From Lactifluus volemus (lineage: Eukaryota > Basidiomycota > Agaricomycetes > Russulales > Russulaceae), in the NCBI GenBank assembly GCA_022376515.1, contig WTXI01000100.1:58368-122367 (forward strand): a stretch of DNA of 64,000 bases, given 5' to 3'. The notes under the pieces are model-generated. The model saw only the letters and a list, made by a program, of their open reading frames with translations. It was not told where the DNA came from and did not search any database. The position numbers were made by a program, and so were the translations under genes. Below are positions 11,019-42,997 of this stretch, in pieces (position 1 is the first letter of the stretch; the number at the start of each line of letters is the position of its first letter).

Positions 11019-11161
11019 CGTGACGTCATGCTGATCATACGCACCACACTGAACTTGGAATATCCTTGGCTTGGACTCCTGTAGGTAACCGAGAACTACA
11101 TCTGGCTGGAGACTTTCCAGTGACTGAAAGAGTGAACAGGGCGGCGCCAACAATAGATATA

Positions 11162-12355
11162 TCAACGTACGGCACCATCAATGCACATAAGGTCGTCGTC
11201 ATGAACAAGAGCCATGTCGCATTCGGGTGACTGCTGCATGACATCGTTGAATTGGACGCCCGGCGACGTGAGTCCAAGTACTCACCGTAGAAATATAATG
11301 TAGAAGGGTGTGAAGGGGATCCTGATACTTTGACATGTTAAAGGAAGGTCGGGGGACGGTAAATGGACAGATTTACGTTTGTATTAGCGGGGATTGTTAC
11401 AAGTTGCGTGTCGAATTCAGGTTCATGTCCACCTGAATCCTGATCTGGGTCCGCTTCTGCTCGAAGCCTCGGTACTATGTTCAGAAATCTGGTGACATGG
11501 AAACCTCTGACGAATATGCACTGATTCTGAGGCAAATCCTGATATCATCCGAGTCGTATCAGGCCAAATGCTGTCACAGGGTGGACGGGAAAAGTGAACA
11601 AGCGTACCTGGCCACTTGGACCTGGATTGAATGACACTCCCCGAATATCTTCACGGGAGAACTGCCACATTACATTGATACCTGAAGTATCGGTGGTAAC
11701 TCCGAAGGACAACTGTTCCCCAAGCTGGCTCTCTGAGAATGCCACATTGGCCGACGATCTTGCAAGATGACGGCCGGTGACCAGAATGACGTCCTCCATG
11801 CGGTTTATCCCTAACCCAAGGTTTCGGGCGAACGCAAACCAGACGTCGATATGCTTGATTAGCCATTTTCCAAAATCTCCAATGGCAATGGTGTTCGCGC
11901 ATTGAGCTGGCACGGGAAGAGATAAAATTGCTCCCTTCTTCCTAGAGCATAAATATGTGACTCGTTCAGGTTCCGGGCTGGTAAGAGGTCAGTGACAAGA
12001 AGAACTGCAGGGATGACATCAATTACTCAGAGGCACCAGGACGTATTCCGAGTACACCAGGCTCGATTGTGACTTCTGTAGAACGGAAGTCATTGGGACT
12101 GAGTGTGCTCGTACAAATATGCGGTTGTCTATTGGGTTTTAGTGGTTTGTGGTATTCCGGAACGCTGGGGCTTTGTAAGTGATGTCCTCTGGCAAGTAGA
12201 GCATTGAAAAGACGATGGAATCTGCCTTCGCGAATGAAACCAACGTCGCCCACTTCCACTGAGGTATAAAGTCCCCCTGGGCCTGGTTCCCATAGGGCAT
12301 GCCCATAAGCAGGATACTTTGATCCAAGCTCGTCACGGAAAATGTCGTAGTTCAT
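11162..12355 (-). CDS. Conserved Agaricomycete protein of unknown function, copy C
   Basis: Five-exon gene matching the copies at 1737-2916 and 5746-7014. It starts MNYDIFRDEL at 12355 and keeps FIREGRFHRLFNALL, FGKWLIKHIDVWFAFARN, NQCIFVRGFHVTRF, DPLHTLLHY and QSPECDMALVHDDDL, ending CIDGAVR at 11162. A possible upstream acceptor in the last intron has lost its AG here. This does not matter, because the acceptor conserved with the diverged copy at 28.3 kb is the later ATGCAG, which is intact and in frame. It lies 144 bases upstream of the F-box start. No function can be assigned. Confidence 0.7.
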
Positions 12356-13144
12356 CACCACTGTATAGAAGGGATCGTGGGAAAGAACTTGCCGTATCGG
12401 GGTTGTGAATTCAATTTGACACGTGACCTGGCACTCTGTATCGGCGGAGCTCCTTTTCTTCGCGTCGCAGTTCAGTTGCTGTGACACCGGCGTTCCTGTG
12501 GCCTTCGTTGCTCACCGGTACGCTTCACTGGAGTTCAACGTTCAGCCCGGCGGTGGGCCACCAGTGGCAATTGTCACGTTTATGCCTGAAGTGGATGTAT
12601 CCTGTAATGGCTGTGCAGTTACGGTATTTTCTCAATGACTCGGAATCAAACTACTTTATTATTCAAAGATCGACTATGTAGTCCAAGCATAACAAATGAT
12701 GCTTGGCGAGGACTGCCTGTAGTACGCCAGTCCGGTTGAGGCACGGAATTCATTACCATATCGACCCCGACCCACCATCTATTTGACTGCGCCGCGGTTA
12801 GTGGAGTGAGTATATGGACATCGGATCGCCCAATTGTTTGACGTTGAATTATTTTCATTGGAAGTAGCTCTCGAAAAAAACCAAATTGTCAAGTTCAAGT
12901 TGCTACGTATTACGTACGACTTTGTGCGATACCATAATCACTCTATCACCTCATTCACATCATGATGAACACCAATCATCAATCATTTCTTGCCATTGGG
13001 TACCCAGTTAGAAACCGGTAATAATGAACATGGGTCCGATGACATTCTGATGTGGAACAGCCATCACAGGCGCATAACCTGCTATTGATACAATACTTTT
13101 TTCTGGTTAAGTTGGTGATGGGATGGCCTCTGAATTTGTCATAC
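12356..13144. other. Gene-free stretch right of the cassette array
   Basis: Contains one more copy of the short spacer repeat (12478-12560), which marks the right end of the cassette array. Otherwise no gene, tRNA or clear repeat is visible. Confidence 0.5.
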
Positions 13145-18457: not shown

Positions 18458-21400
18458 CTATTCCTTAGCACCATACTCCATCAGCAGCTTTGCAACCTCG
18501 ATTTTACCTTTCTTCAACAATACTTGTAACGGAGTCTCGTTGTACTTGTTCCGCGTATGCACGTCAGCGCCGTGCTTCAGGAGTAGCCTTGCCATTTCGA
18601 GTCCATCACTAGGCCCTCTGTACCGCTTAAAGAAGACGCGCGGCAGGCTAGACACGTAATACAATGGAGTGCACTGTTTGTTGTTATACGCGTTGACGTC
18701 TGCTGAGTATTCAAGAAGGAACTCTGCGGCCTTGAGGCGTCCGTTTGATGAAACGAGGTGCAATGCCGTCTTTCCATCGTTATCCCGAGCTCCGACATCG
18801 GCGTGGTGTTGGAGTAGAAAATGTACAACTTCTGGGTTGTGATCTTCATCGCGACTAATATAACTGCTGTAAGCCCAGGATGCATGATGCAATGGAGTCC
18901 GGCCGTATTTTCCATGCACGTTCACATCCGCACCGTGCTCCACCAACAACTGTACAGCCCCAAGGTTCCCGAAGTGTGATGCCGTCCCTAGAGGGGTGTC
19001 ATTATCATTATTTCTGGCATCCATGTCTGCTCCATTCTCGAGCAAGAGCTTCATGGCCTTCAGGTTCCCGAATTTTGAGGCTGCGTGCAACGGAGTCATA
19101 CCGAAATAGCCTTTGGCATTTATCTCTGCTCCATGGTCCAGTAGAAGGCCCAGTACGTCAAGGTGTTCCATATAAGACGCCACACAAAGTGGAAATCCGT
19201 GGTGACCACCTCTTGTGTTTACGTCTCGGGGATATATGGTGAGAAGCCGCTTTGCCAGGTTGTGGAAGCCACATCCCGCAGCGTAATACAGAGGAGTCCC
19301 TAAAGGAGGAGACGTGTACTGAAGACGGTACCTGGGCCATTCGTTGATGCGGGATACCCAGCTTTGATCCCTATCGTGGATCCGAATCCAGGTAGAAAAA
19401 TGTGGTTTCGATGAGTCGAATAATTGGTCCATCCCAACTTGTATAAAGGATGAAACATTCTCAAACTGGGCATGATCTACCCATTTTCCTGCCGCATACG
19501 ATGCTAGAGGATACTCCTTCAACTGGTTTCTATCGACCCCATCACTGAGGTGGAGCAGGGTGCCGAGACAAGCTTGAGCAAGAATTATGTGCGCCGGCTC
19601 AGGGGATATGTGGTACCGCGACACATTCTCGTCTCGTGAAGTGGACAACCGATTCGAGACTAAGAACTCTTTCACAGAGAAGTGCGAAAATTCGACCACC
19701 CGGGAATAGTTGACCTGGACGATAGCGATTAAACTTGAACAAGTTGACAGCAGCGCATCTTCAGGATCATCTAAGCGCCAGTCCGTTATTAAGTTGGGTA
19801 TCCCTTCAGTTTCAAACTGAATCGCTAGAACTTCGGCAAGTTCTTCGACACGTAGGGGGCGAAACGACACAAAAAGACATTGCAAAATGTGATTGGCCTG
19901 TTCCCATTTTTCCTCGGGGATGTCTTGCAAAATTCGACTGTAAGTCTCATCCAGTGTCATTGGGAGGTCATCCAAGATCTTCCGAATTCTTGATGGGAAT
20001 GACTGACACAGCCTATCCAGTTGGCACACCACCCAACGAAACCTAGATCATAGCACTGGAATGAGACAATATCCCACATCCGAAGGAACAAAGAAACCTT
20101 ACATCCCGTTAGCACCCTCAGAGAGTCTCTGGACAACCAGGTCTTTATCTTCTGACCTCCATTTATGCATTTCTTTGTATGAATGAACCACGAATTTAAC
20201 ATAATTGATAATGTCCGCCTTTTGTCCGCCTTGATCATGCAGGGGGATATGGACAGATGTCAAGGACTCAAGGACTGGTCGGATATCATGTTCATCGCGA
20301 CTTGTGACAAGGATATGCATGCTTGAGAAGTGTGACTCGACAAGGTCCTTCAAGAGATTCAGGACCTTCCTGCGTGGTGATGAAGTAGGTGGGGTGTTCG
20401 GACATTCATCCACAGCATCTACGATAATGTACACTGGCAGTCGTTCATCCAAATTGAGCATGTCCTTGAGGCATTTTATTAACTTCTCTTCAGTTGGTCG
20501 TTCTCTTCCATCGTGATGCGTGTGATATAGTCGAGAAAGGATGTTCCAGAAATGGTGACTCTGGTTACAGAGTTGGACCAGGAGTGAAGCAACCAAACCG
20601 TGGATGTCGCGCTTCGACGTGTCTTTGTAGTCAAAATAGAAATAACATATTGAACCTAATCCGTCGTTGCATGTGCCCTTGATGTTCTCAATGATTGATG
20701 AGCTGTAAACGACATGAGCTTCTCAACGTGAACCATTCGGAAATGACATACCAAAGAATGCTCTTTCCAGAGCCTGCTACAAAACCAGGAGGCAATCAGC
20801 AATGATAAGGACGCGAAGGAAAGATGTTGGTACGTTTGCCATGTATCCACAAAAGGGAACCACTCGATTTCCATTCATTGAATGACCCATTGTCAATAAA
20901 CCACGCTGCAGTTCCTTCATGGTGACGGCTTCGTGCAATGCTGTGATTTACAGATGGATCCGGAGGGGAGAGCCAGTTTTGTAGCTCCGATCGCGATTGA
21001 TTACCTACAACGCAGTTTAGTGGATGTGAGAAACGACGAAAACGATAGAGAACAACGAACGATTGATCTTGTCCGCAACTGTGAGTAGAATGAGTATCAG
21101 GTTGGCATGCGATGTACAATAGCAAGCTGTGCTTACCCTGCAGCGTACTGGTCACCGTCACGCGCGTCTCTTCCTGCGTCAATTTGTCCAATCTTTGTAG
21201 AGCACTCTCGATCTCTCTCCCTCCCGCCAGCTTGTTCAGAAACTTTTCTGAAGAGAGATGAGCGAAGAATGACGCATCAAGCGCAAGCACTCACTGAGTA
21301 GTCCTTGCTTTATCTCTTTCGTTGAAAGTGTGAGGATGCAGAGCACCTCCGCCATTATTTTACCGAGCATTTCCGTCATTTCCGTCGTGAGTTCGATCCC

Positions 21401-21937
21401 AGAGCATATCTTGACACGGGTGAGGAACGCTTGAATACGTTCGAAGATTTCGCAGAGGACTTCATAGCTTGCGGCAACGTCGTTAGCCGCCTGATACGTC
21501 GTTACGAAGATGCATGATGGATGATCAAGGAAAACATTCACCTGGAGAAGGACACTGATTCCGGAAAACATCACTTTCGCGGGAGAAAACGTCTGATAAA
21601 GAGTGACTGAGATCGATAATAAGGAAACAAATCATCCACCGAGACATACCAGGCTGACGCCCTCACCAAGGATACCAGAAAACATAACCAAGACAGGTAC
21701 GATAGTGTTAAGCCATTTCATCAAAGTCTGACTCTTCTTCTTAGCTCGATTGAGAGAGTCCACTTGCTTTTGAAATGTTGCCAGGATGGCATCAGCGGAC
21801 TTGCAGGAGTCGAGCTGGGCGGCAAATGGATGCGTTCGGAGATCTTGACCAGTCTTATTCTTGTATTCCTCCAAGGCGGCATCGAAAATAGATATGAAAG
21901 TTGAGGAGGGGATGGTCGTCTGGTTAGCTTCAGTCAT
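18458..21937 (-). CDS. NACHT and ankyrin repeat NLR-like protein
   Basis: Spliced product of roughly 1,050 residues, starting MTEANQTTIPSSTF at 21937. The N-terminal 230 residues (DAALEEYKNKTGQDL, then a hydrophobic stretch TIVPVLVMFSGI) resemble the fungal STAND N-terminal 'Goodbye' type. The NACHT NTPase follows: LLWIHGKPGSGKSIL is the Walker A motif, split over three exons with a 25-base middle exon at 20752-20776. YIIVDAVDECP is Walker B, and ILVTSRDEHDI follows. A winged-helix-like part (LQCLFVSFRPLRVEELAEVL) comes next, then about eight ankyrin repeats (TPLHAASKFGNLKAMKLLLE and others) ending at 18458. Such fungal proteins are thought to sense non-self or damage and trigger incompatibility or cell death. 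The ligand and output here are unknown. All motif residues are present, so it may be functional. Confidence 0.85.
20752..20776 (-). other. 25-base microexon coding the Walker A core
   Basis: On the minus strand the exon is bounded by TTTTGTAG and GTATGT. Joined to its neighbours it gives HGK-PGSGKSIL-CSSII, a perfect NACHT P-loop. Read unspliced, the motif is lost, so simple open-frame scans miss it. Confidence 0.75.
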
Positions 21938-23038
21938 AACATTCACCGAGGGAAGATACGACACGGCAAAGCACCACTGGCAGCTGGCATTAGGCGCTCG
22001 ATAAGCTTTGCGCACTAACTGAAGAAAATTCGTTGAATCGTGAGACAGCTAGCTGTATGCAAATTTATTTATTTAGCTCATCTTGGAAATTCCTTGCCGT
22101 CACAGCTACAGCCAACCCAGCTGCAAATCGTAAGGAAGCCCTCTCGAGCCTCCCATCCGCTTAGCGCGCAGGCCGGGGACTGAGGCTGGCTCCTGCCCCC
22201 TATATGGATCCCCCGCAGCTCGCGCGATACACCCTCTACTTGACGTTGTCACCCTAGCACATCTGCGGACATTATATTCTCTATTCTCGAAGCATCAGGA
22301 AAAAAACTGGAAAGTGCAAAAATGGCTTTACATAACGTATGCGAACTCACATTGGCCCGGGACTTGCCTAAGCGGCTTACCCGGAGCTATCCGAGCCTAT
22401 CCGAGCCTACCTGGCCGTGTAAGTTATTATCACAGGCATACATACGCCCCCACTCAGAGAAACTAGCATCATTACAGCTAGATCTTGTTGGCACTCTACA
22501 GCTTCAACTTTTCGCGACCGATAAACGTTATGACAATAACGTTTGACAGGATCTCCAACGGTCTGGGCATGATTTCATTCCCTTGCAATATTGTGTAACT
22601 TGTAGACGAAAACTCGCGGATACAGCAACGCGATGAGCATCTGCTCTGGAACTGCTCAACAGACCAATTTCCAGGGTACGGGTCCATGCCAGAGATTGTT
22701 CGACAACGAATGTCGGAGAGGTCCTTGTTTAACTCTTTAAACCAAGAGACAGAGCTAGTCGCGATAAGACGGGGCGGACGTGTGGCTGTGGCAGGGCCAC
22801 GACGCAAGCAGAGGCTTGCATGAAATGGTTTGTTTTATGTGTAGAACGACACGATGACGACTGAGGACGAACGGACAACTTGTGGGAAATTTCTATCTCT
22901 CGCTCGGAACACACCGGAGGCAGAACAACGCATCAGCACAAACTTTTGTTTATTTATTTTTTGCTTTGGGAGAGGCAAGGGCTCATGCAAAAAAATCAAC
23001 GAGAATAAGAACAAACTCGGCATCAAGAAGGTCGTGAT
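21938..23038. other. Spacer between the NLR gene and the RdRP/zinc-knuckle gene
   Basis: Holds the 5' flank of the minus-strand NLR gene and the 3' flank of the minus-strand RdRP fusion gene. Several open frames of 60-100 codons have no family features. No repeats or RNA genes were recognised. Confidence 0.45.
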
Positions 23039-23820
23039 TCATTTAGATGAAGCGCGCCTTTGAGGTTGCGGGCAATCGCGGCGTATGTGACCCTGTGATC
23101 AAGGGATAAAATGAACCAACCAGCGGATACACACAAACGCCACACGGGGCTACTCACGATGGCCGAACAATTGTAGCATTTCGAACCTTGCATGCAATCG
23201 CGTGACAGATGGCCCACCCCACCGCACGTCCAACTTGACGGGTACATCAGCGACCGGTCAAGACCCCCCTCTCTGGTGAATGCTCACCATGTCTTTTGGC
23301 TTCCAGCACCAAAACTGCCATAACCTCCTCCTCCTCCGCTGCCATAGCTACCACTACCACCACCTCCGGGCGTCTCAGGGCACGCACGCGCAATGTGGCC
23401 GATCTTTCCGCAACGATAGCATTCTGTACCAGAAGAACTACTCCAAAATCCGCCACCACTACCGCCGCCACTTCTTTGGTAGTCAGGGCAATCACGCGAC
23501 TGCGATCCCAAATTGAAGCGGTTGTTTAAGGGCGTGTAAATGTATAAGAACGCACAATGTGACCTTCCTGCCCACAGTGATAGCAGGACGTTGCCACTTC
23601 AAGTTGTGTCATCGGGCAGTCATGTAATGCGTGATCCTCCATACCGCCTGCACCAATAGGTCGCATATAAAGAAGAGAATATGAAGGTAAGCGACCGACT
23701 CACAATTATAGCTGAAACGAAAGAAAAGAGCACGAAGTGAGAGAGGGATCGATCAATCAGCTTTTTTCGCGCGACTGAGAGATTCAGAAAGAACGGGTTC
23801 TTTACCATGTAGGAGTGCCA
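23039..23820 (-). other. Five CCHC zinc knuckles of Gis2/Byr3/CNBP type
   Basis: Spliced on the minus strand the segment gives five CX2CX4HX4C knuckles in order: CYNCGMEDHALHDC, CYHCGQEGHISRDC, CYRCGKIGHIARAC, CWTCGGVGHLSRDC and CYNCSAIGHIRRDC. A Gly/Ser-rich linker lies between the third and fourth. The order and linkers match fungal Gis2/Byr3-like single-stranded nucleic acid binding proteins. Those normally have their own start and a further N-terminal knuckle; here only a worn GKEAGNFPKGG remains of it. The first knuckle needs an 8-base exon (CTATAATT, minus strand, around 23710). No independent start codon with the full first knuckle exists, which supports fusion with the upstream RdRP frame. 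Confidence 0.8.
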
Positions 23821-26800
23821 CCCTTTGGGAAGTTTCCAGCCTCTTTGCCTCGCCGGATGTTAAGGGGCTCACCAAGTCCCACAAAGCAATCAAAAACGAC
23901 CCCCAGCGCAATCAATGAGAAGCTTTTGATAAACTTCTCAGACCTGCGCCGGTCCCGTGCCCAGCACCATGTCGCCCAACCATTCCGAAGGCCACTCTGC
24001 AGCTGACGCCCCACCCAAGGAGCCTCTCCGGGTATCATGTGGGAACGAACGTTGCGCACCAAAGTCTCAGACTGCAGTTTCATGCGGTCAGCAAGGTATG
24101 AGTGCCACCGTGGTTGCGTACAGCTCGTCATGATAGCGCCCAAGACAATTTCTTCCTCAGTAAGGCTGGCGCCCGGAAAGGTATGTGTCATATGGATGTA
24201 GTCCATCTCTCGTGCGTAGCGCACGTACAGCCCCTCTGCTTGTAAACTCACAGCCACAAGTTCTTCTGCACTTATATCGACCACGCGCTGGACTAACGGT
24301 GCGAGGGCATCCGAGATTGGATCCCACAGTGCGACTTCTTGTTTCTGGCTGAGGTCCTGAACGCGGGGTAACATTTCGATTGAGCGGAACAAGTGCCCAA
24401 GCGCGCGGTCCGACAAGTAGTAGTCGATGTCACGGTCGTTGGTAACCTCGGCCACTGGCATGGACCAATCCGGCTTCAAATTTGTCAATGTCTTTGGGAA
24501 ATTGTCGTGGAGGAGGACTGGCTTTCCAGTTTTTGCGTAGTTGGCTGCTTTGCTGTACAATGCCGCGAGCTTCATGCATCGGACATCGAATACGCCGTCC
24601 TATCAGCCTATGAGAATGGAATTCTACTGTTGATGGGTACCGCACCTTTGATTGGTCAGCAATGATGGCGTGCCGGTCCGCCAACAAACCCTGTAGAGCG
24701 GAGCAAGGCTTGGGTTCAGTGAGCGCGTGAGCATACCCAGGCACGTACGGTAACATCAGAGTTTATGTAATTGACAATGAAGTCATGGACACCCTCAGCT
24801 GTAGCATCCCCGCGCCCCTCGTCCAGTGTCCAGACATCACCGGGAACGTAATCCGCTGGGCGAGCTTGCAAAGGAGGAAGTAACGCTGGATTATTGTAGT
24901 AAACGTCGTATGTGTCACTAGAAATGATTGATCGGTGGTTATTGCGTAAAGCGTGTATATCGCGTACCCGTCTAGGTCACCGCCAGCAAGACAAGATGAC
25001 AAAGAACGGTCACCTAGCAAGTGTAGATTAGTGTAGGGCTGGAAGGGCTATTGAAAACCACACACCGATAGCTGGTAAGACGACGACATTTTTCAGGCCG
25101 CGGAAAAAGCAGATCTTATCATCAGGGGGCTTTCCCACAGCGTAGACAAGTCGAACTAAAACGCCAAGGGATCTCACCAGTATCGAAGGCAGGATGATAA
25201 CTCATATACATACCGTCACCAGGGTGAATCAATGGGCTCCTGGAAATGAGACAATGACCCTCGAGATACACGGGCCTTTCATCCGCACATTTTTGTACGC
25301 AAGCTGATATCGTCTGTTGAATGACACTGCACGACTGTAAAACGAGGAAAAATACCGTAGATGAAGTCCTCCTTCAGCGTGAACACTTTGTCAGGGTCCG
25401 TGCCTTCTTTAATATACGCTTGACCTTCGTCCGCAACGCCGACTAACTGATAGCTATGCGGAACCGGGATTCTTGCCCTGAATTTCAACTCGCGGAGCGA
25501 GTGATTCATCACGTCGCGTACCAAACGCCCCCGAAAAGACAGTCCCGACGCTTCGTTGAAGGGAAAATGAGCGAAATCAAGTCCAAGCTTGACAAGTTGC
25601 TCTAGGATAAAGGCCAAACGAAACTCATCACCGAGACTCTGCTCTCTAAGCAGGCCGGCAAATAGTTCCAAGGAATCCCTGGCAAGGTAGACCTTTTGTT
25701 TCGCTGCGTCTTGGAGGCACATGAATGTTTCTTTTTTAACACCAAGGTCTTCCAATGCCATAACCATAGCCCTAGAGATTCGAGAGATGAATGAACGTCC
25801 ACAAGATATAAAGCCACATGCCTGTTCAGATAAACTGTGGAGGGACAGTTGAACGAGCGCAGTATCTCAAGTTCACCTTCCACGACGTCAACATCATAAA
25901 CTGGAAACCTGCGCTGGGACTTTCTGAGGCGCAACTTGATACCTTTCAGCAGGCTGTCGATAACGACCACACCTTCGTACCAAAGAAATCGGAATTGGTA
26001 TGCGAACGGCATGACGTGGCCCTTTCTTCGGTTACCAGTGGTCTTGCACTGCTTTTCCCATATATTGTGAGCCAGCTCCTGCGAGATCGTGCCAACGCCG
26101 TCCGTGTGCGGTTCCAATTCATCTTGCTCTTCCCATTGGTAAGATAGAATCTTTATTTTCAGATGCATGGCTTCGAGCGCTTGTGCGACCCTCTCTGCAC
26201 ACTTGCTTGGAGTCCGAAGTAGCTTTGAGAAACCACCAAATAATGCCCGAATGCTCTCCGCGTTGACAAAGCCTTCACGATCGCGGAACGGCGCCACGAA
26301 CCACACGGCATGTTCTCTCAGCGAGCCCATTGAGTGCGCCAGGAACTTAAACGCTTGTCCGCCTAATTTAAATCCTTCGCGTAAGATGCCACCGACACGC
26401 CGATGCAAAAAAGAAGTTCGATCAACATCCTCGTCCCACCGATATGCGAGGTTGTCCTCATCCCGGAATTCTACACGCATGAAACGATCTATAAGTGTAG
26501 GATCGTGACTTTGGAAGTGCTGGATGAGACGGTTCGATGGCATCACAAAGGGGCCTTGAGGGAGAATTCTCGAAGGGGTGACGATTACTTGATAGCACAA
26601 AATATGCCCCTTTGGGGGCGTAAGCGGCTTGATTGTCGGGTACTCCACGAGGATCCGCGCCAGGCAGGCATTCGGCGTCTCACTTGGGCTTCGTGTCCAA
26701 AGGGCGACAGAGAAAAGACGCAGGATCTCATTCGCACCAGAGCCGTAGACAAGAATGACATCTTCAATAGGTTTCCGGAGGCTAGAGAGTAGGTCATGCG

Positions 26801-27931
26801 TGTTGAGCAAGCCACAACGTAGACATGCCTCGATTTGAAATGCATTCTTCCAACCTAGCGTCTTGATCCAGCGGGAAACATTGTCGATGGATTTCCTCGT
26901 AAAGAGTCTCATCCCCAAGAGATCTACGTTGTAGATACCGGTAGGAACGACCTTGCGTATGACATCCCTATATATTGCCCCAAATTCGGCGAGAGGATCG
27001 CCGAGGATGACACGTAATTGGTACGCATATGGCGCGATGCGAGCATGAGCATCATCAATTGCGGATATACGATCATGTGTCTTGTAATTTCCCTTCAGCT
27101 GGCTGCCTTCAGAAACGCTAGTATTATAGCTTGCTTTCTCGAAGATAGGAGGGGTGTATAACTCAAATATGATGACTGTCGGTTGTGGTCGACCATCAAT
27201 AATACGGGGCGATGATAACAGAAGAGCTCACAAACTTGCTCCTGTGTATCGTACCATTTTCCTAGTTTTCGGATAGTGGAGAACCTCACGAGGATACGGT
27301 AGTTGATTTGCTCGATCTCCTGCTGCCGTATCTGAAAAATGAAAACGTCAGCTGCGACCAACCGTAAGGTAGTAGTACACACATCGATGCAAATGAGGTC
27401 ATGCGCATTGACTAGGTAGAGATAGATTGCGCCTTTTCGTTCATATTCCACAGAGAACTTTCTTGTTGAGTCTGGTTGCGTATACCACACACCAAACTGG
27501 AATTTCGCAACCTGGAATTGCAACTGGATTGGTTGGCCTTCGGATTGCTTGATTTGTTTTTGTAGCTTTGCTCTCCCAGGGACAATGTAAGATGCTAATT
27601 CGAGATCGTAGTCCACTTCCGGGGGGACACCACGATGCACGTCGAAGAGACGAACTGGGTGATGCTTGACGACGATATTATTTTCAGATGATTCCCAATA
27701 CCATCGAAAGAGTCGCTTTCCTACGTGAATAGGGACACCAAGCATAGCAGTCCTATTGTGGATCCGACCATCGGGGCTCACGCCAGGGGCGACTTCGAAA
27801 TACGATCCCTTGCCAGCATTTCTGCGATCTTTGGAGTCATAAAGGTAAAGGCGGCGGAGAATGAGGGCTACAGCTTCGTAGATATCATAGACGTCTGCGT
27901 CAAAGCCGATATCTCTGAGTTCGATTTCCAT
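23039..27931 (-). CDS. QDE-1-like RNA-dependent RNA polymerase with C-terminal CCHC knuckles (fusion)
   Basis: Cellular two-barrel RdRP: it copies single-stranded RNA to make double-stranded RNA for silencing. From ATG 27931 (MEIELRDIGFDADVYD) the exons give FQFGVWYTQPDSTRKFSVEY, VEFRDEDNLAYRWD, EPHTDGVGTIS, RARIPVPHSYQLVGVADEG and the catalytic LAGGDLDGDTYDVYYNNP, in which an intron splits DLDG from D. The C-terminal helical part ends SFSLIALGVVFDC. At the point where its relatives stop, this copy reads on (RRGKEAGNFPKGGTPT) to a GT at 23817. Splicing there keeps frame into an 8-base exon and then five zinc knuckles, ending at TGA 23039. All exons join in frame; one intron (25772-25821) has a GC donor. 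Length about 1,330 residues. The alternative is that the RdRP ends ten bases into unspliced intron (TW, stop) and the knuckles belong to a truncated neighbour. Confidence 0.75.
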
Positions 27932-28291
27932 CGGGTGAGTGTGCGGAGAGAGGCAGTACTCCGTAAGTTGTTTGTTTGCCGTGAGGGCGTTTTCCGACTC
28001 AAACCCATGTTTTTCTGCCAAGGTATGCTTGAATAGCGTTGCTACCTTAACAATGGGCCCCTCGCCAGCCAAACCGCTTCCGCAGTCGGAGAAACTGTCT
28101 GAACGCAAGCGCTTCACGATGAGAGCTCAGGTACATGCAGTACTATGGAGTACTCACCATGACTAGTACGCTCAACCTGCCAGATCTCTGGCGGAAAATT
28201 CCAGAGGTGTCCTCTAAGTGGGTATGGCTCACAATTTTCCAGTGGCTGGTCAGACTGGAAGAGTAAGGTGGACGGTGCAATCAACAGATTA

Positions 28292-29498
28292 CTAAACATA
28301 CAACACCGTCAACGCATATGAGGTCATCATCATGAACGAGCGCCATATCGCATTCAGGTGCCTTCTGCATCATGCTTGTTAGAATTGGATTTGCACACAC
28401 GATAGACACATAATGTGGATCCAAAGTCTCACTTCAGCGAGATAGTCCAGGATCGTGTGAAGGGGATCCTGACACTTGGAAAATGTCAGGGAAAGGTTAG
28501 AAGTTACAAGAACAAATTTACGTTGGTATCAAGCGGAATACTGACGAGTTGCCAGTACTTGTCAAATTCAGGTTCATCTTCACCGGGACTCTGAGCCGGT
28601 TCTGCTGCTCCTCGAATCCTTGGCAATATTTTCAGGATTCGGGTGACGCGGAAACCCCTGACGAATATGCACTGATCCATTGGCAGATCCTGATACGATC
28701 ATATTATTAATAAGCCTAGCTCCGTCCTGCATCTATTGGTATGGGAAAACATGGAGAAGCGTACCTTCCCGCTCGGACCACGATTGAATACCACCCCTCG
28801 AACATCTTCACGCGAGAATTGCCATTCTACGTCGGAAATACCGGAAACTTTAACTTTTAAGGACACCTGTCCCACCGCTTGGCTCTCCGAGAATACAACA
28901 TTGGTCCATGATCTTCCGAGATGGCGCCCGGTGACTAAAACAATATCCTCCATGCGCTTCACTCCTAGGCCAAGGTTCCGAGCAAACGCAAACCAGGTGT
29001 CGATATGTTTGACTATGCATTTCGCGAATTCTCCTCGAGCAATCGTGTCCTCGCGTTCGGCTGGCACAGGAAGGGATAAGATTGCGCCTCGCTTAAGGCA
29101 CGAATACCTGACTTGTCCAGGCTCCGGGGGGCTAGTAAGAGGTCAGTGACGCGAAATCCAGTAAAGGTGGGTCTCTACTCTTTGGCTGAGAGGATATCAT
29201 TTTCGATCCCAACTGTGACTTCCTTCGAACAGAAGTCATTGGGGCTGAGTAGGCCCGAGTAAGTATGCCTTCCCATCTGGAGTGGTAGCGGCTGATGGTA
29301 TTCTGGAACACCAAAGTTTTCATGGGATGGATCATCTGCGGGGAGGAGAATGTTGAATAGACGGTGGAATTTTCCATCGCGAATGAATCCGACATCGCCC
29401 ACTTCTACGGAATTATAAAGTCCCCCTGAACTTGGGTCCCACAGGGGGTGCCCAAACGCAGGATACTTTAGTTCTTCGCGGAAAATGTCGTAGTCCAT
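28292..29498 (-). CDS. Conserved Agaricomycete protein of unknown function, diverged copy D
   Basis: Single relative of the three cassette genes at 1.7-12.4 kb, without an F-box partner. It starts MDYDIFREELKYPAFG at 29498 and keeps GDVGFIRDGKFHRLFN, EFAKCIVKHIDTWFAFARN, ILVTG-type LVTGRHLGRS, DQCIFVRGFRVTR and DPLHTILDY. The last exon reads KAPECDMALVHDDDL, ending VVCL at 28292. Its last intron ends in ATGCAG, which fixes the acceptor for the other copies. It is transcribed toward the RdRP fusion gene, about 360 bases upstream of that gene's start. It looks intact. Function unknown. Confidence 0.7.
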
Positions 29499-30549
29499 CG
29501 GTGAACTCGATGAGAGAACGCAGGAAGGGAAAAACCAGGGACAACAGGAGGGTATATCAGGCCAATAGCCGTATCCTATTATCCGCTTGTGGAACAACAT
29601 TTGCGCCGCTGCTGACGAGTGCGAGGAGATTTGACAACGATGTGTTATTATGTTTCCGTAGAGCACGGCGAACTTGCAAGGGTTGTGAGAAAGTGATAAC
29701 CTTCAGCCAGAGTTCACTTAATTTCAAGGTATCAAGCTATATCAAGTCCCTACTACTAGTTGGCAGCTTGTCAGTTTGGCGCTTGGTTTGCCGCTCTGTT
29801 GGAACACAGTCCTCCGAAGCTAGACTGGTAAAAGCGAGTTTTTTTTCATCGAAGAATTGGTGGCGACTGCCATGAGACGACACTAACACGACAAACTCGC
29901 CTCGTCTCGTGACTTACATACAGAAGAGTCTTTTTTCGGCGTTTTCGGGCACTCAAAATTTCGAAAAAAATAATCTAAAAATCATCCAATCTATATATTG
30001 GTGGGGCATAGCTGTGAGGCAAAGATGTCCTAGGTATTTTGGTTTCCATGTTTTACCGTTTTTTGCAGTCTTTCGCGTTCCTGAAACCCAAGGAATATTT
30101 TCCTGGTCTACGACCATATACCAGGTGAGAATCTGAGATTCTGCCTACTCTGTTCCTCTTTGCACATCCGCCGAAAATGGGGACAAGAACAAAATTTGGC
30201 TGTGGTCTTCAGGTGCAGACTCATCCGCAGACCTTTCTACCAAACAGATGCCCTTCTAATTACACCACATGCACGTGGGGTGTGAGGTGGGAATCATGCT
30301 TGAATAGTACAGATTGTATGCGGCCTTATATTCTTACAGGAACAAAATCATTCCACCTAGGTGTCTATGGACCAGTCAAGCATCATCCGTAAGACCATAG
30401 TCCTCGTGAATCTGACGGATGGTTGTCTGCTTATGAACTGCAAGCTGAACATATGCGCATGATTTTTGATATCAACGGTTTATAGCAGAAACGAAAGTAA
30501 CATACCTTCCCGATTATTATCTAGCCCGACTAGGGGTTAGCACAAGCCG
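29499..30549. other. Spacer containing the possible element
   Basis: Apart from the tRNA-headed segment at about 29900-30290 no gene is visible. This is the 5' side of the diverged MNYDIF gene and the 3' side of the Swi5 gene. Confidence 0.4.
29900..30290 (-). mobile_element. Possible non-autonomous element with tRNA-like head
   Basis: On the minus strand, 30266 down to 30212 reads GTGTAATTAGAAGGGCATCT then GGTAGAAAGGTC and GATGAGTCTGCACC. This resembles a tRNA D-arm to T-arm order with a weak B box. It is followed by an AT-richer body to about 29900 ending near runs of A (minus strand). This could be a SINE of a different family from that at 7.2 kb. There is no second copy in the window to define its ends, so the boundaries are guesses. 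Confidence 0.3.
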
Positions 30550-30819
30550 TTAGTCCTTAGCCATGCATTGTAAGATCACCTGTGCGGCGTCCTTAGCTTC
30601 ATTGTAACGATGCAGGAGTTTGATATGTCTCGAAACAATTTTCTGTGCATCCTCTCCATTCCTAAAAAAAGCGCGTCAATAATGCAATGACACACGCCAT
30701 ATGCTTACCCCAGCTCTTTCTGCAGCTCGGTGACTTGTGCCTCAAGCTCTGCAATACGTGCCTCTCGCTCCTGAGAAGATTTTCAGATTTTTATAAAGAA
30801 TAAGATATAAGACTACCAT
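30550..30819 (-). CDS. swi5: Swi5 recombination mediator, very small gene
   Basis: Three exons (30817-30819, 30709-30770, 30550-30661) splice to 58 residues: MEREARIAELEAQVTELQ, then KELGNGEDAQKIVSRHIKLL and HRYNEAKDAAQVILQCMAKD. The C-terminal half matches the Swi5 family signature (IVKRHIKLLHEYNEIKD in relatives). The N-terminal half is the usual coiled coil. Swi5 with Sfr1 helps Rad51/Dmc1 filaments in homologous recombination. The start codon is the whole of exon 1; upstream the frame is closed by TAA unless a further exon exists, as family members are usually 80 or more residues. The gene is easily missed because each exon is under 40 codons. Confidence 0.7.
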
Positions 30820-31304
30820 TCCTTCGCGGATGTGCGCGCGTGCATCTTTGATTTTTTTAGATTCGAGTTATGCGAAAAGAGAGTAGGTCTTCAGATGAGG
30901 TTTTATGATGAGGGTCTTAAGACGCGAGCAGTACGTAAACGCCACGTGGTGTCCTCAACCAAGTGGAAGGCTGCGTGAGTGAAGGGCGAGTTAAACCACA
31001 CGGCGAACAGACAAGGGAAGGCCCAGAGCCTAGCAAATCATTCAGGAATGCGAGGAACGGCATAGCCTGGCCGCAACATGTTTGAAACTGAGGAACATAT
31101 TCATAGCTCTGCCAGACAGCAGAATGCTCATGCGAAAATATAGAAAGTCGACGGGGTTCGCCTGCCAGATTGCCATAAACTTTTCAATTTCGAGAAGTAC
31201 AGTATAGAGAGTAGAAATTAAAGTTACGTGGGAGTCGTCTCCCTAACGAGGTAGGCACCGTGAGGCTCCGCGTCGCGTCGAGCGGATGGTCGAGACACTT
31301 CGTA
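30820..31304. other. Divergent promoter region of swi5 and COG6
   Basis: The two genes point away from each other across about 485 bases. An upstream exon of swi5 could lie here; no clear motif was recognised. Confidence 0.4.
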
Positions 31305-34001
31305 ATGACATCTCTGTCCCCGGTGGCGGTTACGGAACTCGGCCGACGCTCACAGACCGCATCGCCGTCGCCACTTGCGCGAAATCCCATCTCTCTTCGC
31401 CTTTACAAAGTTCTGGGGGCATCATTCGACGACGAAGCAACAAGAGAGGCACTCAGTACCCTTTCCGAGCTTTATGCGCCCTCAGGATCCCCAGCTCTCC
31501 ACCCCACAGAGAAACAAGATGACACAGGACCTTGCGAAGTAGATGAGGCCGACGTGGAAAGAATTAGGGATGTGCCAGGATTCTTGCAGGGTGCAGCCCC
31601 TGGCGATACTGCTGCAAAAGCGCGGAAGCATCTTCGACGGGATATCGAGAGTAAATTGGAGGAAGGAAGTCTCAAATTGCTTGCTGCATTCGGTTCTGTC
31701 GACCAAGTGCGTATCATAATAGTCTTGTACAGGCTACGTGCAGCTCCTCATCACCTGCTACAGAAATTGGATGCTCTACAGACCCATATAACGGCTATGC
31801 GAGCGCGGTGCGAGGAAGCGCAGGCACAATTACAGTCAACGAACGAGGCCTGCGTGTCCTTGCTTGACCGTGCAGGGAGTCTGCGTGATGAGCGGTATGA
31901 TTCGACCGACTCCTTTCCGCCAACTTCTATCCCTTGTTTACGCCAAGAATGCGCAGACAGGAAGTGAAGACGCGTCAATCAATTGTTACCTTGTTCCTCG
32001 CGCGTTTTACGCTCTCCGACGATGAAACCAACTCGTTGTCTTCCCCTGATGTTCCCGTGGGCCATACGTTCTTCGCTGCCATGGATCGTGCGCAGGCCAT
32101 CCGTCAAGACTGCCGTGTCCTGATGGCCGGGGAGGACAGTCCCTCCAAGGCCGGGTGTGTTTTCTTCACACAAATCGATGTTAACCACCCTTATGCCATG
32201 GCAACAGACTCGATATAATGGCCGTGACCTCTTCTCACCTCGAGAAGGCATGCGACAAACTGTTCCGATGGTGTCGCTCCGAGTTCCGAAGCATGGGCCG
32301 TGATGCATCTCTCGAAGTTTCCAACGAGCTGAGCGAAGCCGTGCGCCGTCTCCGTTCGCGCCCAGAGCTCCTTGCGTACGCCATCTCTTCCACCTCCCTC
32401 TCCCACCTCTAATCACCTTTACCTACCGAACCCAGGGATGCCCTAACCGTACTTGCGCAGACGCGCCAGACCGCACTCCTCGCTTCGTTCACGAGCGCTC
32501 TGACGACCGGCAGCCGGACTGGCAGTTTAAGTGCTCGTCCAATCGACCTGCACGCGCACGACGCTCTGCGCTACATCGGCGACATGCTTGCGTGGGTGCA
32601 CCAAGCCATCGCGGCAGAGCGCGAATTTCTCGAGGCGCTCCTCAGCATTGACCCAGGCGCGCGTATGCCAGGGGCCGTGCGGGCGCCGGCTCACGCGGAA
32701 GACGAGTGGCTAGGGGAGCTGATGGACGCCGCCGTTGCGGGATTGTGCGGTCCCTTACGCGCGCGGGTGCTACAGACGGTTCGGGCCCAAGAGAGTGGTT
32801 TGAACGCGTACAAGGTAGCGCGTCTTCTCCATTTCTATGCGCTGACGATGGCACGCACGCTCGGTTCGCGCGCGCTTCTCGCCACAACTCTCAGAGAGTG
32901 CGTCGTGCTTCCTCATCCGCTTCGCTCTCACCTGGTAACAGAAACTCATTCCAGGACCACCGCCGCATCATACGCAGTCTTTTTCGACGCCATCGCAGCG
33001 CAGGGCCGTGCACTTTTGCGAGTCTCACTCGACACTGCCGATGCCTCGCTCACGCAACCGCAAGCGCTACTGACGCATGCACAAGACATTCGCGCGATCC
33101 TAGCGCTACACACCGCAGAGGCGGATACTGACAGCGAAGATGAAGCAGATGGCGTCAGTGGCGGCAGCGGGGGGGATGGCGCGACTATCGAGCGTGCACT
33201 GGACGCGCTCGTCGACCCTGCGGTACGGATGTGCATCAGTGCAGCAGAGGAAAAGGACACGCTGCTCCGTCGGCGTGCTGGTCCCGGCGGCACCGCATAT
33301 ACTTGGGACCGCCCCGTCTTCGTGCTCAACTGCCTCACATACTTAGCAGACACACTCTCGCCTCACCCATGCGCAACACGCAAGCATATGGAGCTGGATA
33401 GTACTATCGAGGCGCGGGTACGGGATCTCATCGAAGAACACGTTCGTATATTTCCCGTCTCTCCCCTCGTCTTCTCTTACACAAATTTTACGCCCGCCTA
33501 ATTGTTCTTGTTTTGGAAGTACAGTACGAAAACATATTGCGCGACTCGGGTTTACACGACGCCATCCGTGCATGCGAGCAAACTCCACCAGACGCAAGTG
33601 ATCCCTTTTTTTTTTCCCTTACCTACGCTAATAAAATCGCTCGCTTTTTACAGGAACCCCTAGCGCACGTGATAGCATGTGACCCTCCAGCACTCCGCAA
33701 CGCTCTCTCCTCCTTTGCGCGCTGGCTCGCCTCGCTCGATGCAGTGCACGCGCCACGCCTCACCGCGCTTACCGCCTCTGCCTTACACGTACGCGTCCAC
33801 CGCACGGCGCAGAGGCGTCTCGGACACGCATATGCGGCGTTGTGTGCGCGGGTACGCGAGCCGCGATCTCGGTATGAAGCTGCGACGACGCTGTTGGGCG
33901 CGGAGCGACCGTTCGGAAGCGTTGCAGCATTGTGGCAGATATTCGGGATCGATGAGGATGCACAAGGGGATGATCAGGATGAAGGTGGGAAGAGCATCTA
34001 A
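31305..34001 (+). CDS. COG6: Conserved oligomeric Golgi complex subunit 6
   Basis: Start ATG 31305 (MTSLSPVAVTELGRR). Exons join through short introns at about 31708-31767, 31893-31963, 32154-32210, 32376-32437 and 33439-33528. The protein carries the COG6 pattern: NPISLRLYKVL near the N-terminus, a coiled-coil stretch around KLDALQTHITAMRARCEEAQ, FTLSDDE, DCRVLMAGEDSPSKAG, LFRWCRSEFRSMGRD, GDMLAWVHQAIAAEREFLEA and, late, EEHYENILRDSGL. It ends KYEA-type RYEAATTLLGAERPFG, then LWQIFG. COG6 is part of lobe B of the COG tether, which handles retrograde vesicles at the Golgi. A T-run around 33607-33655 may be one more intron; the frame is open across it. Confidence 0.85.
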
Positions 34002-34300: not shown

Positions 34301-35753
34301 TCAACGCACCTCGTCGCGCTCGCGGCCGCGCATGAACGATGGCTCGGTGCCCTTGTAGTAGATATCGGTCCAGAGGTCCTCTGACCGAGGCACCGGGGAA
34401 GCCTTGGCCTCTTCTACTGCCTTGTCGACTTCCCCCTTGGCGGCCTTATCGAGAGCCTGGATGACGCGTTTATCGGTGATCATGCAGATAGGGAGGAAGC
34501 GAGCGAGCTGTCGTTACGTACCTTAAGGTCAGGCTCGGTCGCGATGCCCCATTGTTCAATGTAGGACTGCAGACCGCGAATCGGGTCTTGCGTTGAACGC
34601 ATACGCTGCACCTCCTCACGAGTACGGTATGTTGTACCAGGGTCAGACATCCTGTCCTCATCCTCAGATTTGGGCTTCGATCCAGAGTAAAGAACACGCA
34701 CGAATGGCCACCATAACGGTAGGTCACAAACTCGAGTAGGAGCGGACCCTTGCCCGAGATGACCCAATCACGCGCGTATTTGACTGCCTGCGCGGATGCG
34801 ATAATATCCATACCGTTCGCTTGGATACCAGGTATCTTGTCTCCCCGAGTGAAGTACTCGGTGTTCGATGAGCTGCGCTCAGCAGAGGTACCCATTCCGT
34901 ATTTGTTGTTCTCGCAAACAAACACGCAGGGTAGGTTCCAGAGTTTGGCCATATTGAACGCCTCGAAGACTTGGCCCTGATTGCTCGCACCATCCCCGTA
35001 TAGAGCGAATGTAGCCGATGGGCGCTCGAGATATTTCATGGCAAATGCGATGCCGGCACCGACGGGGACTTGCGCACCAACGATACCATTTCCGCCGAAG
35101 AAACGGGGCGTAAAGATGTGCATTGAACCACCCTTTCCTTGAGACATGCCAATTTGGCGGCCGAGGAGCTCGCCCAGTACACCAGTGATAGTGCCACCAC
35201 GAAGGACAGCGAATGGATGGCAGCGGTAAGAGGTGATGACCATATCATCCTTAGTTATAGACGATTCGAGACCGACTGCAACAGCTTCCTGAAAAAGGAA
35301 AGAACGCGGGACGCGAATAATATATCACAGGGACGAGTCTGAAGAGAGAATACGAAACGCACCTGGCCAATTGCGAGATGGCAGAAACCTCGGATGAGCT
35401 TGCTCTTGTACATCGCGTCGGCAGACTGCTCCATGCGGCGCATCGTGACCATTTCCTTGTACATTTTGAGGAGGCTGTCCTTGGTGACCTCTACGTCAAG
35501 AGAAGGAGTTTCGGTGTTAAAAGCTCTGAAGGAGTCTTCATGAAGTTTGACTGTGAATGGGGTGGAGCCATCCTCCGGTATTGATTGGGAGAGTCGTGTT
35601 GAGTCCGCCGCGGTCTGTAGCGAGCGGGCCAAAGGCTGTCACGTAGCGTAAGTACCAAAGGTTGAACAAATAAGAAATTGTAATTAATACCACAAATCGA
35701 CCGGTTAGCGTTTTTAGAGGGAGACAAGAGCGGAGTCGAGGAAGGGAGGCCAT
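34301..35753 (-). CDS. PDA1: Pyruvate dehydrogenase E1 component subunit alpha, mitochondrial
   Basis: Start at 35753 (MASLPRLRSCLPLKTLTGRF), an arginine- and leucine-rich mitochondrial presequence followed by an intron. The mature part has SLLKMYKEMVTMRRMEQSAD and GFCHLAIGQEAVAVG. The thiamine diphosphate motif runs from GDGASNQGQVFEAFN to CENNKYGMGTSAER. The regulatory serine loop RYGGHSMSDPGTTYRTR is joined across an intron. The end is GTEPSFMRGRERDEVR with stop at 34301. With E1 beta it decarboxylates pyruvate and passes the acetyl group to the lipoyl domain of E2 in the matrix. All key residues are present and the length, about 410 residues, is normal. It converges with COG6, ending about 300 bases from it. 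Confidence 0.92.
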
Positions 35754-39485: not shown

Positions 39486-41010
39486 TTATCCAAAAAGATA
39501 ATCTATAAATATGCCAGCCCAGATGACTTTACCCAGATAGAAGGCATTCGATTCGAACTGTCTTATACTCAGTAAATGCAGTCGAAAGAGATGAATTTGG
39601 GCCACGTACCGCGCTAAGACAGCCGTTTGGGTCATCAACGTCAAGGTTTTGAAGCTGCGAAACGAAATAGTAGGCTGTACCCCCAACAGCAACTGTGAAG
39701 TACGGTACGCCTTGGCCGTTTAGTACACCAGCTGCAGTGAGACATGCGACCATTATGCCGGCAAAAACAGCCAAAAATTTCTTCACGTGTCTACCAAATA
39801 GAAGCGCAGTTGATTTCACTCCTGCCTTCACGTCGTCACGCCTATCTTGACAAGCGTATATTGTATCTAGTTCGGCTTTATATGGGAGGAAGATTCACTG
39901 AGTGTGAAGCTACGCACCATAGTAGATCGACCACCTGTGGATTTGTTACCTCAGCTCGCCTTCGCCAAACATAAACATAAAATTCACTCACCAACAGCAA
40001 CCCAGGAACAGCACCCCTGATGCGGGAGTGAGCTGAGACTGCAGTGCGCTCCATGCCACAAGGGATATCATATTCACCGCAACGCCTATGCTCGACCGTA
40101 GAGTTTCAGGTACGTACTTTTCTATTCGGAAACTACTACTTACCTAACCAGACCTGCGGCCAGTAGGTGACACGTTTCAAAAGTGGATATATCCCTGCCA
40201 AGGGGAATATTGTAGTGAGCCCAAAGTTCCAACTGTTTAGGCCACTTGCTTTAACTGAAGCTCGACATATGACAAATGGAACGTACGCAAGGGCATTGCA
40301 GGGCTGGAGGAGAGCGAGGAGTATCACGAGATGAATCGCCAAGAACACGAGGGCACCTGGCACTGACACCCGACCATCGGCAATTGGCCTGTGCTTCGTT
40401 CGCTCTGGATGCCGCGGTTGTGAGTGCATGGGGGCAATTCTGATTCTGCCCGATTTCTCACCTACTTGTCTGTCGATGTCACGATCGAGGATGTCATTCC
40501 ACACGCAAGCAGCACCTAGAAGAGCGTAAGAGCAGCAGCATTATGGGGAAACATGAACTCATACTATCATTCCGGCAGAAGACAAAGCCGTCAACAGACC
40601 GAAGACCTTCCTAAGAGAGTGCTCACCTGTGCAGAAGGGCTGCACCAACTAGGCCGTAGGTAAGATTGAAACCATAGGTCTGCAGAGACAGAGACAGTGG
40701 ACGCGCGGCCATCGTCATTCCCCAGGCTGTATTGACGGAAAGGCCAGTCAATTACGTTAGCGGAGTGTCTATGGAGTTCCCATACCGCAGGGCCAGAAAA
40801 CGAGCATGGAGCCAGCGAACTTATGTACGCGGGAGAGCTCGACCTTGAAGTGGATGCACTCAGCGAAACTGCAGCGACAGGGGCGAGAGATGGCAAACGT
40901 AAACGCCTACCCAGCGCCAGAGTCCTGTGGAGGGCGATCTGCTTTCCAATGCGTTCATGGTCGACGAGAGGAGGGAGAGGACTATGAAGTTCAGAACCGG
41001 ACTGGCTCAT
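39486..41010 (-). CDS. UbiA-family prenyltransferase
   Basis: Membrane enzyme that joins a polyprenyl diphosphate to an aromatic or related acceptor. Start ATG 41010 (MSQSGSELHSPLPPL) is likely; the first junction is unclear. Then come VELSRVHKFAGSMLVFWPCAWG and the first Asp-rich motif NDILDRDIDRQV, which binds Mg-diphosphate. Next are hydrophobic spans (LVFLAIHLVILLALLQPCNA, IGVAVNMISLVAW). The second Asp-rich motif region is YYDTIYACQDRRDDVKAG, followed by STALLFGRHVK and the end YLGKVIWAGIFIDYLFG. COQ2-like enzymes and meroterpenoid prenyltransferases share these motifs. Which one this is cannot be read, but there is no obvious mitochondrial presequence and no biosynthetic neighbours. One junction (about 40500-40630) keeps frame only with an internal GT donor (GTGCAG) that drops a few residues; with the stronger donor the frame slips by one, so damage is possible. 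Confidence 0.7.
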
Positions 41011-42997
41011 TAAAAACAGAGTGACTCGGAGAACGTTATGATCATCGCTTCGGTGGCCGGGAAATCTACTACTTGTTAGAGACTGCGATGAAGTACAACG
41101 TCACAGATTCGTAACTCCACGAACTTCAAGTGAGAACACTTTTAGTGCAGCCCGAGTATCTACCAATCACAACGCAGACGGCGCCAGTATGCATGGGTCT
41201 GAGAATCCGCGGCGGTGACTATGACTCGGACAGCGTATAGGTCCGAGTCTTTGTCTCGTTCTCACCTTACTAGTAGCGTTATGTACAGACAGCAGCCTAT
41301 CATATAACCTCACTTTATTGCTCTCCTATTCATTCGCTTGCTCCCGTGTTGGGTATTAAGTTGAAATTGGTGCACACTTCACCTGTCGGTACCAATGCGC
41401 ACAATAGCTCGAAATCTTATCAAGAATTCCACATTGTTCTTGCACGCCCTAGAGACGTCAGCGAGAAGCACGGGTTCTGACTCACATCCAATCATTTCTT
41501 GCAATCCATCAATCTTACCGCCTACCATTATCCCGAGGTCAAACGTTGACTAGGTTCTGAAAAAACAACAGGTCCGGTGGTCGCACTCCATATTCTTTCG
41601 ACTATCCTTTCACTAGCAGGCTTGTCCAGAAGAAATAATATTTGACATCTGTCTGGCGCCAACATTGTCGCGTAGATGGCAGATGCTTTCAGCGGCAGAG
41701 TCTCAAAGTAACTTTAGGATTCTTTTTTGCAGTGCACGAGAGAGAAGAATGAGCTTCTGCGAGGCGAAAGTCAAGTGAAATCTAGGGAACCACCGTCTCA
41801 AGACATTATTCGGATAAGACCCTCAAATACATAACAAGCACCTGTAACCCCAACACTGTTTTTTCCGCTCCACGTTACGTGCTCTTTGTGCCATGCTTGA
41901 TCGTGACATAAAACCTAGAGAAGTTATTTACAATCCCTCCACTATCTTTGGTTTGGAGGGCATAATTGAGAAATTAACCAGCGTTGTGCGGGGCTGTATG
42001 TCCTGCATTTTCAGGTCCTCTGTACAACGTCTATGGTTGTTCCTTATTTTGAAAAGAAGGTACACGTCCAGAACCATGAACTGTGCAGAAGTAGCTTCCG
42101 CAGCCCCGACAAAGCCTCATGAAAGAGAAGGATCGTTTCCCTTTCCCGAAAAAGGTGTTTTAGAGAGCAGGTTCCGCAGCTACATGCGCAGGGATGAAAC
42201 ACATCCAAGAAAACTCACGGCCGCGGAGAAGTGAGCGAAAGTTGTTTGGGAGATAGTTGGCTGCGGGCGTGGACAACGCTTCCCAAGCTTCCGATGAGGT
42301 TGATGTGGTATGACTTAAAAGATACAGGCAGACAGCAGTCCGTGTGAGCATTTGTATATGTGTTCTGCAGCAGCAATGATAGAAAACTTATGGAGAGCGT
42401 GACTACCCCAGGCTAAGGCAGATTGGACGGGCCTGAGTCAAAAGGATATCTGGGTTGCAAGGACGCAGTCTTAGCCTCCCAATTGGACATCACGGGGGGG
42501 AGCTCCAGGCGCCGCAGCGGTTCTAGCTAGAACGATGTTCATCGAGAACGGAAACCATGAAACGGTCAACTCCGAGTCGGAGTGTCGAAAGCAAAAACGT
42601 GTCACGTGACTTATTTTGGCCCAGGTCGCCGCGTCTCTCTTGAAAAAATCATTCTGTTCTTGACACTCTTGGTTGTCATAAAACAAAATCCAACGTGGTA
42701 TACACAACCAACAACACATTTGCTGTCTTCTTCGATGTTCCACATGTATCATTGCGAATACGCATCGTAACTAGTCGGCTGGAAGCTGCGTGCTGGATGA
42801 GTCCCATCTGCCACTTCACATCGATAGATAAACGTGTTCAACTCACCTTTCACAACTTATGAACTTATGCAGCTGCGGAAAAGAGTTCTGGGCCTCCCAC
42901 CACGGGGGCTGAGCTTCCCCCCCATCTGTTTATCTAGGGTACCCTTCGCAGGGAGCTTCGACACCCCAGCTATTTTCTCTCCTCATATTCCCACCAT
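41011..42997. other. Gene-poor region before the second RdRP
   Basis: A 113-codon plus frame at 41893-42234 (MLDRDIKPREVIYNPST) has no recognised family and no supporting splice pattern. No repeats were matched elsewhere in the window. Confidence 0.35.

Follow-up and report, generated by a model that had tools for sequence, protein, structure and literature searches.

A candidate young, haplotype-specific fusion of an RNA-dependent RNA polymerase gene with Gis2-like zinc knuckles in Lactifluus volemus

The polymerase gene and its knuckle tail

The window considered here, a stretch of 64,000 nucleotides (C3:58368-122367) in the 62.4-Mb assembly of Lactifluus volemus (628 contigs), contains on its minus strand an RNA-dependent RNA polymerase (RdRP) gene whose reading frame runs on into a tail of zinc knuckles. 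This gene, referred to as RdRP1, occupies positions 27931-23039 (positions are those of the window unless a contig is named) and comprises 15 exons totalling 4095 bases, which give 1364 codons followed by a stop; the phases are consistent and no internal stop codon occurs. The polymerase half is formed by exons 1-10 (23806-27931), on the basis of the gene model, spliced alignment and Pfam. In the gene model, exons 1-5 lie at 27931-27383, 27331-27232, 27175-25822, 25771-25356 and 25303-25214, and exons 6-10 at 25155-25066, 25013-24968, 24917-24749, 24690-24646 and 24599-23806; knuckle-gene sequence already begins near 23842, within exon 10, and makes up the rest of that exon. As an earlier note on this DNA had proposed, the frame has no stop after the last conserved polymerase block and reads FDCFVGLGEPLNI-RRGKEAGNFPKGGTPT. 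Intron 10 (23712-23805, GTAAAG...TTTCAG) follows. Its GT was found at 23805 and not at 23817, as the note had it, and the in-frame TAA, which had been placed ten bases into the intron, begins at the second base. Exon 11 is only eight bases long (23711-23704) and precedes intron 11 (23703-23648). The removal of both introns around this small exon keeps the frame into five CX2CX4HX4C knuckles, in agreement with the same note; the knuckle exons 12-15, stop included, are located at 23647-23556, 23499-23288, 23233-23158 and 23092-23039 by the gene model and by comparison with the source gene described below.

The polymerase exons were also delineated independently with a purpose-written spliced aligner, driven by homology to the protein of a relative. 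With the Lactifluus subvellereus protein P0001 as query, the same ten exons and intron boundaries were recovered over 1196 codons, as far as exon 10 with its open end, with neither frameshift nor stop. An apparent frameshift in this alignment was traced to a stretch of P0001 resembling a retained intron, and none is needed when this stretch is removed.

Both domains are recognized by Pfam in the same chain. PF05183 matches residues 415-1027 with 456.9 bits (cut-off 23.8) over profile positions 1-582 of 582, and zf-CCHC reaches 96.6 bits, with four stretches passing alone. The catalytic D-x-D-G-D is present as GGDLDGDTYDVYY, assembled across an intron (24967-24918) that splits the DLDGD motif (residues 879-883, 24914-24978 on the minus strand). 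In an alignment of the core with 7roz, the solved structure of an RNA-dependent RNA polymerase 2 (a plant enzyme), this motif falls on DLDGD. RdRP1 thus shares the full domain and the DLDGD motif with the fungal cellular RdRPs of the QDE-1/RDR family, and differs from them by some 160 additional C-terminal residues that contain the five CCHC knuckles. These knuckles start at residues 1218, 1242, 1278, 1322 and 1341, and all 20 zinc ligands are present. By pattern, and with introns included, the first three of them cover 23807-23616, 23585-23488 and 23421-23380, and the last two 23289-23194 and 23178-23072, all on the minus strand.

The closest relatives of the polymerase half among the matches listed are Russulaceae proteins. 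The first of these is P0001, with 63% identity over the RdRP half, which ends CLKRLGALPDTCQ and, unlike RdRP1, has no knuckles; in the tree it adjoins RdRP1 and RdRP2 with a support of 0.75. The tandem sister genes RdRP2 and RdRP3 have ten exons each, share their intron positions with RdRP1 and end at a stop codon after FDCLKRLGALQDV and LDCLKYLGGPPEV, respectively. Only these two other RdRP 3' ends were found in the window, where three had been announced; a fourth RdRP, which starts near 62.7 kb, runs past the end of the window. RdRP2 (42200-46840) matches its query from residue 117 onward in both haplotypes, and its N-terminal part seems to be lost or very different.

Origin of the knuckles and the two haplotypes

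The comparison with the intact Gis2-like gene of this genome, which the earlier note had recommended, identifies the tail as a truncated duplicate. The source is a Gis2/HEXBP-like gene at C112:9612-10904, with eight exons, 201 residues and seven knuckles, whose homologs carry the names HEXBP or cellular nucleic acid-binding protein; a genome-wide DNA search returned a single further copy of the tail sequence, at C112:9907-11095. The knuckles 2-6 of such a gene, their linkers, introns 2-6 (intron 10 of RdRP1 being among those inherited), the eight-base exon, which is identical in both, and the stretch behind the stop codon are all retained in the copy. The last is found at 22776-23038 (minus strand) as a copy of the 3' untranslated region, according to the source alignment, and a further duplicated piece at 22672-22772, on the same strand, resembles C112:13946-14055 at the DNA level. 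Knuckle 7 of the source is deleted in the copy. The first donor knuckle is indeed eroded, as had been noticed: a remnant is left in which the His and the last Cys are lost (GHQAANC to GKEAGNF). In contrast to the small free-standing protein with seven knuckles, RdRP1 therefore carries five knuckles behind a polymerase in a frame of 1364 residues. The splice sites and the eight-base exon are shared with the intact source gene, and in-frame splicing into the knuckles is consequently more than chance.

The Gis2-like similarity starts in a junction zone at 23842-23855 on the minus strand, at the start of which the sister genes have their TGA. RdRP2 reads GTC TGA GGC AAG and RdRP3 GTC TGA GTC, whereas RdRP1 reads ATC CGG CGA GGC AAA, so that only a few codons can separate the lost stop from the breakpoint, whose position is ambiguous at the base level. 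Of 555 zf-CCHC candidates, 150 were scored; among the matches listed, no other RdRP locus of the genome has a zf-CCHC match in its vicinity.

Copy and source differ at 110 of 1065 aligned bases. Some of these changes resemble C to T and G to A transitions, and decay of the repeat-induced point mutation (RIP) or CpG type was considered and rejected: the copy has an observed/expected CpG ratio of 0.97 and the source one of 1.02, 16 of 69 source CpG are changed in the copy and 11 of 64 copy CpG in the source, and the differences are 24 versus 18 by direction for G-A and 12 versus 12 for C-T. The same divergence bears on the possibility that the assembly wrongly joined an RdRP to a knuckle gene. 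Contig C3 is short (122 kb), in favour of such a join; the copy is nevertheless too distinct from the only other copy found to be anything but a sequence of its own, and both flanks of the interval that holds RdRP1 match the other haplotype. An assembly chimera is therefore very improbable.

The second haplotype is provided by contig C112, to which C3 looks allelic: C112:242-296 kb is collinear with most of the window, the longer blocks being 96-98% identical and some shorter ones near 89-90% (matches below 88% identity or 150 bases were dropped). RdRP1 lies within a haplotype-specific interval, 22347-30147, which is absent from C112 and replaced there by 14 bp (C112:258501-258514). The nearest flanks of this interval are less alike than the longer blocks (81% over 125 bp and 84% over 107 bp of C112), which points to a site that is either old or fast-changing. 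No obvious sign of a mobile element was seen at the ends of the 7.8-kb interval, which were viewed by eye and not searched systematically, and Rfam returned no match at gathering thresholds over 20000-32000. One copy of a multicopy family, described at the end, sits inside the interval.

The truncation also bears on whether two separate genes might be present, one for a polymerase that ends in intron 10 and another, driven by a promoter within the end of the RdRP, for a knuckle protein that begins at an internal ATG (residue 1223 or 1233). The earlier note had stated that no independent start remains. This holds for the source gene's own beginning, as the copy starts within source exon 2 and both the upstream region and the first exon are absent (no promoter search was made); it does not hold for start codons as such, since in-frame Met codons occur within the tail at residues 1223, 1233 and 1336. 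The first of them is common to the source gene, but a start at this position would break the first complete knuckle. This arrangement is judged improbable.

Constraint on the two halves of the gene

Taken together, the locus is most likely a real, young, haplotype-specific, in-frame fusion gene, as far as can be judged from its sequence. Its expression is likely, and it is moderately probable that this young chimeric RdRP-knuckle gene would give one joined protein. A function of the tail is possible.

Since the duplication, the polymerase half seems for much of the time to have kept its frame better than neutral drift would predict. Between source and copy, 52 of 588 noncoding sites differ, and the divergence is uneven, ranging from 0.015 to 0.161 among the introns. 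Half of this divergence was assigned to the copy, giving k = 0.044, by an assumption, as silent changes cannot be polarised. With this value, the neutral chance of finding no stop in the 1204-codon RdRP half is 0.0055 (4000 simulations). Counting frameshifts makes this chance far smaller, at a rate that is probably overstated and that derives from 11 indels located in introns and in an A-rich 3' stretch. Between the RdRP2 haplotypes there are 8 indels per 99 substitutions, six of them frame-shifting, which would correspond, at k = 0.044, to about ten expected events over the RdRP half. RdRP1 and RdRP2 are separated by a synonymous divergence (dS) of 0.94 and a non-synonymous divergence (dN) of 0.265, a ratio of 0.28 over 1056 codons, and most of this history predates the fusion; the silent sites of RdRP3 are saturated. 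A joint neutral chance was likewise obtained for the tail, by multiplying simulated and computed factors: the absence of stops and of frameshifts outside Gly runs, combined with the retention of every splice base and of all 20 zinc ligands, has a chance of 0.0018 at k = 0.044.

Several observations weigh against a useful fusion gene, and those that concern the polymerase would also fit a different history, in which the whole gene is a recent pseudogene, a decaying haplotype-specific duplicate that has gained no stop yet. The fusion locus is absent from the sister haplotype and, for this reason, the interval 22347-30147 is probably dispensable. Intron 3 (25772-25821, minus strand, GCATGT...CTCTAG) must use a GC donor, where its counterparts in RdRP2 and RdRP3 begin with GT; the GT donors of this stretch, followed by eye, all break the frame and none restores it. 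RdRP1 also departs from its homologs at 9 of 140 near-invariant columns, against 6 of 142 for RdRP3, 2 of 141 for RdRP2 (rank 40) and 0 of 140 for P0001. It occupies rank 4 of 114, equal with P0021, in a comparison with RdRP2, RdRP3 and 111 homologs (120 listed of 192, nine dropped for length) in which the proteins ranked worse were not cleared of annotation errors. One of the substitutions, G615W, falls in the block FLGYKGV of P0001. The dN branch of RdRP1 is longer than that of RdRP2 (0.161 versus 0.104). The state of other family members is consistent with decay: RdRP4 and RdRP5 (C112:294400-304300) and a copy on C223 need 4, 6 and 2 frameshifts, respectively, in alignment to L. subvellereus proteins, and several RdRP copies outside the window look like pseudogenes, whereas RdRP1, RdRP2 and RdRP3 look open. 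The absence of any stop or frameshift in the RdRP half and the dN/dS of 0.28, although the latter reflects mostly the time before the fusion, argue in the opposite direction. The no-stop chance rises to 0.30 at k = 0.01, so that a loss of RdRP1 function in the last fifth of the time is possible. A pseudogene is, on balance, rather unlikely.

The remaining points against a useful fusion concern the tail, which appears open, with its ligands kept, and otherwise changing at about the neutral rate. The joint chance weakens to 0.059 at k = 0.02, and retention of the zinc ligands alone has a neutral chance of 0.125 at k = 0.044 and 0.39 at k = 0.02. The cores of the five knuckles carry eight amino-acid changes, of which four fall in the first knuckle and none on a zinc ligand. 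At all eight sites, the residue most often seen in 95 homologs (from 120 listed of 359, those with fewer than 15 Cys being dropped) is that of the source, so that the changes look derived in the copy. No silent excess is seen in the cores, with 10 non-synonymous differences over 166 sites (0.060) versus 2 synonymous over 44 (0.045). Within the tail, 16.2 non-synonymous versus 1.8 synonymous differences are counted over the first 55 codon columns; the dN/dS is 2.4 in these columns, 0.35 in the remainder and 0.57 over the whole tail.

These figures would suit a passenger tail, in which the polymerase is made and useful and the knuckles are intact by youth, under no selection of their own; the protein may even lack them when intron 10 is retained, with a short tail ending GGTPTW. 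The deletion of knuckle 7, the ruin of knuckle 1 and the in-frame TAA right behind exon 10 agree with it. Yet none of the 20 zinc ligands is changed, the frame and five introns are kept, the joint chance is low at k = 0.044, and intron 10 and the eight-base exon retain the splice sites of the source gene. A passenger tail is a serious possibility, at somewhat less than even chances.

Architecture, proposed role and neighbouring features

The earlier note had considered the combination of an RdRP and CCHC knuckles to be new, and this claim survived the searches made, within their limits. PF00098 was found in none of the 120 RdRP homologs listed (of 192 found), and an RdRP domain in none of the 10 long proteins sharing the tail; both protein searches were word-based and length-limited, with about 8000 candidates scored each. 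A literature search on RdRPs with a zinc knuckle or CCHC, covering mostly titles and the first lines of abstracts, turned up no RdRP-CCHC fusion among the papers listed, and passages of PMC11105155, PMC6437275, PMC4457147 and PMC6027434 name the two domains apart.

As the sequence shows, part of the Gis2/HEXBP-like gene, from the second exon to the 3' untranslated region and minus the last knuckle, was duplicated beside the 3' end of an RdRP gene of the tandem family. The RdRP stop codon was lost, and the inherited splice sites carry the frame into five complete knuckles. The main transcript presumably spans both parts, because the RdRP's own 3' end has been replaced by that of the knuckle gene, and would be spliced like the source gene to give a single protein of 1364 residues. 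Less firmly, the tail might keep the polymerase attached in cis to single-stranded RNA or DNA, possibly with a preference for G-rich sequences of the kind bound by Gis2/CNBP proteins.

A model for such a role is provided by QDE-1, whose partner Replication Protein A (RPA) is built of OB folds. The tail would do in cis what this separate single-strand-binding protein does in trans. According to PMC2950127, QDE-1 of Neurospora requires RPA, a single-strand DNA binder. The two systems would be alike in pairing a polymerase with a single-strand-binding factor, which is a separate complex in Neurospora and would be covalent and of knuckle type in RdRP1. CNBP is described as a binder of single-stranded DNA and RNA in PMC3528734, and Cryptococcus Gis2 binds an element within a putative G-quadruplex according to PMC6083090. 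That the tail selects templates is a reasonable guess. The earlier note went further and read the locus as a silencing polymerase with a different way to choose templates. The architecture, in which an entire RdRP runs by in-frame splicing into five Gis2-like knuckles, is supported by the sequence; a working, template-choosing polymerase is not, given the absence from one haplotype, the unusual RdRP substitutions and a tail that is near neutral outside its zinc ligands. It is doubtful that RdRP1 acts as a working silencing polymerase whose own Gis2-type array replaces a separate loading factor in the choice of single-stranded or G-rich templates. If it did, the QDE-1/RPA partnership would have a natural covalent counterpart, present in one haplotype of a single individual and absent from the other, and this would bear on template recognition by cellular RdRPs, an open question in RNA silencing. 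The locus would also offer a natural paired comparison of knuckles present and absent on a related scaffold, as the sister gene lacks them and the other haplotype lacks the locus. It also preserves an early stage of gene fusion, in which the source gene, the polymerases related to RdRP1 and the allele without the locus can be compared within a single genome.

The surroundings of RdRP1 are mixed. An ankyrin-repeat protein is encoded at 18458-20722 (repeats at 18458-20047), probably with an NTPase part in front that appears NACHT-like by eye. Housekeeping neighbours include a COG6 C-terminal domain (32413-33501), an E1 dehydrogenase component (34470-35324) and a UbiA-type prenyltransferase (39529-39894). 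The multicopy family mentioned above is represented in the window at 28233-29499, 1685-2916, 5853-7014 and 11122-12356, and at 21 other places of the genome over more than 1 kb with 67-70% identity; two open frames of the 28233-29499 copy have no Pfam match.

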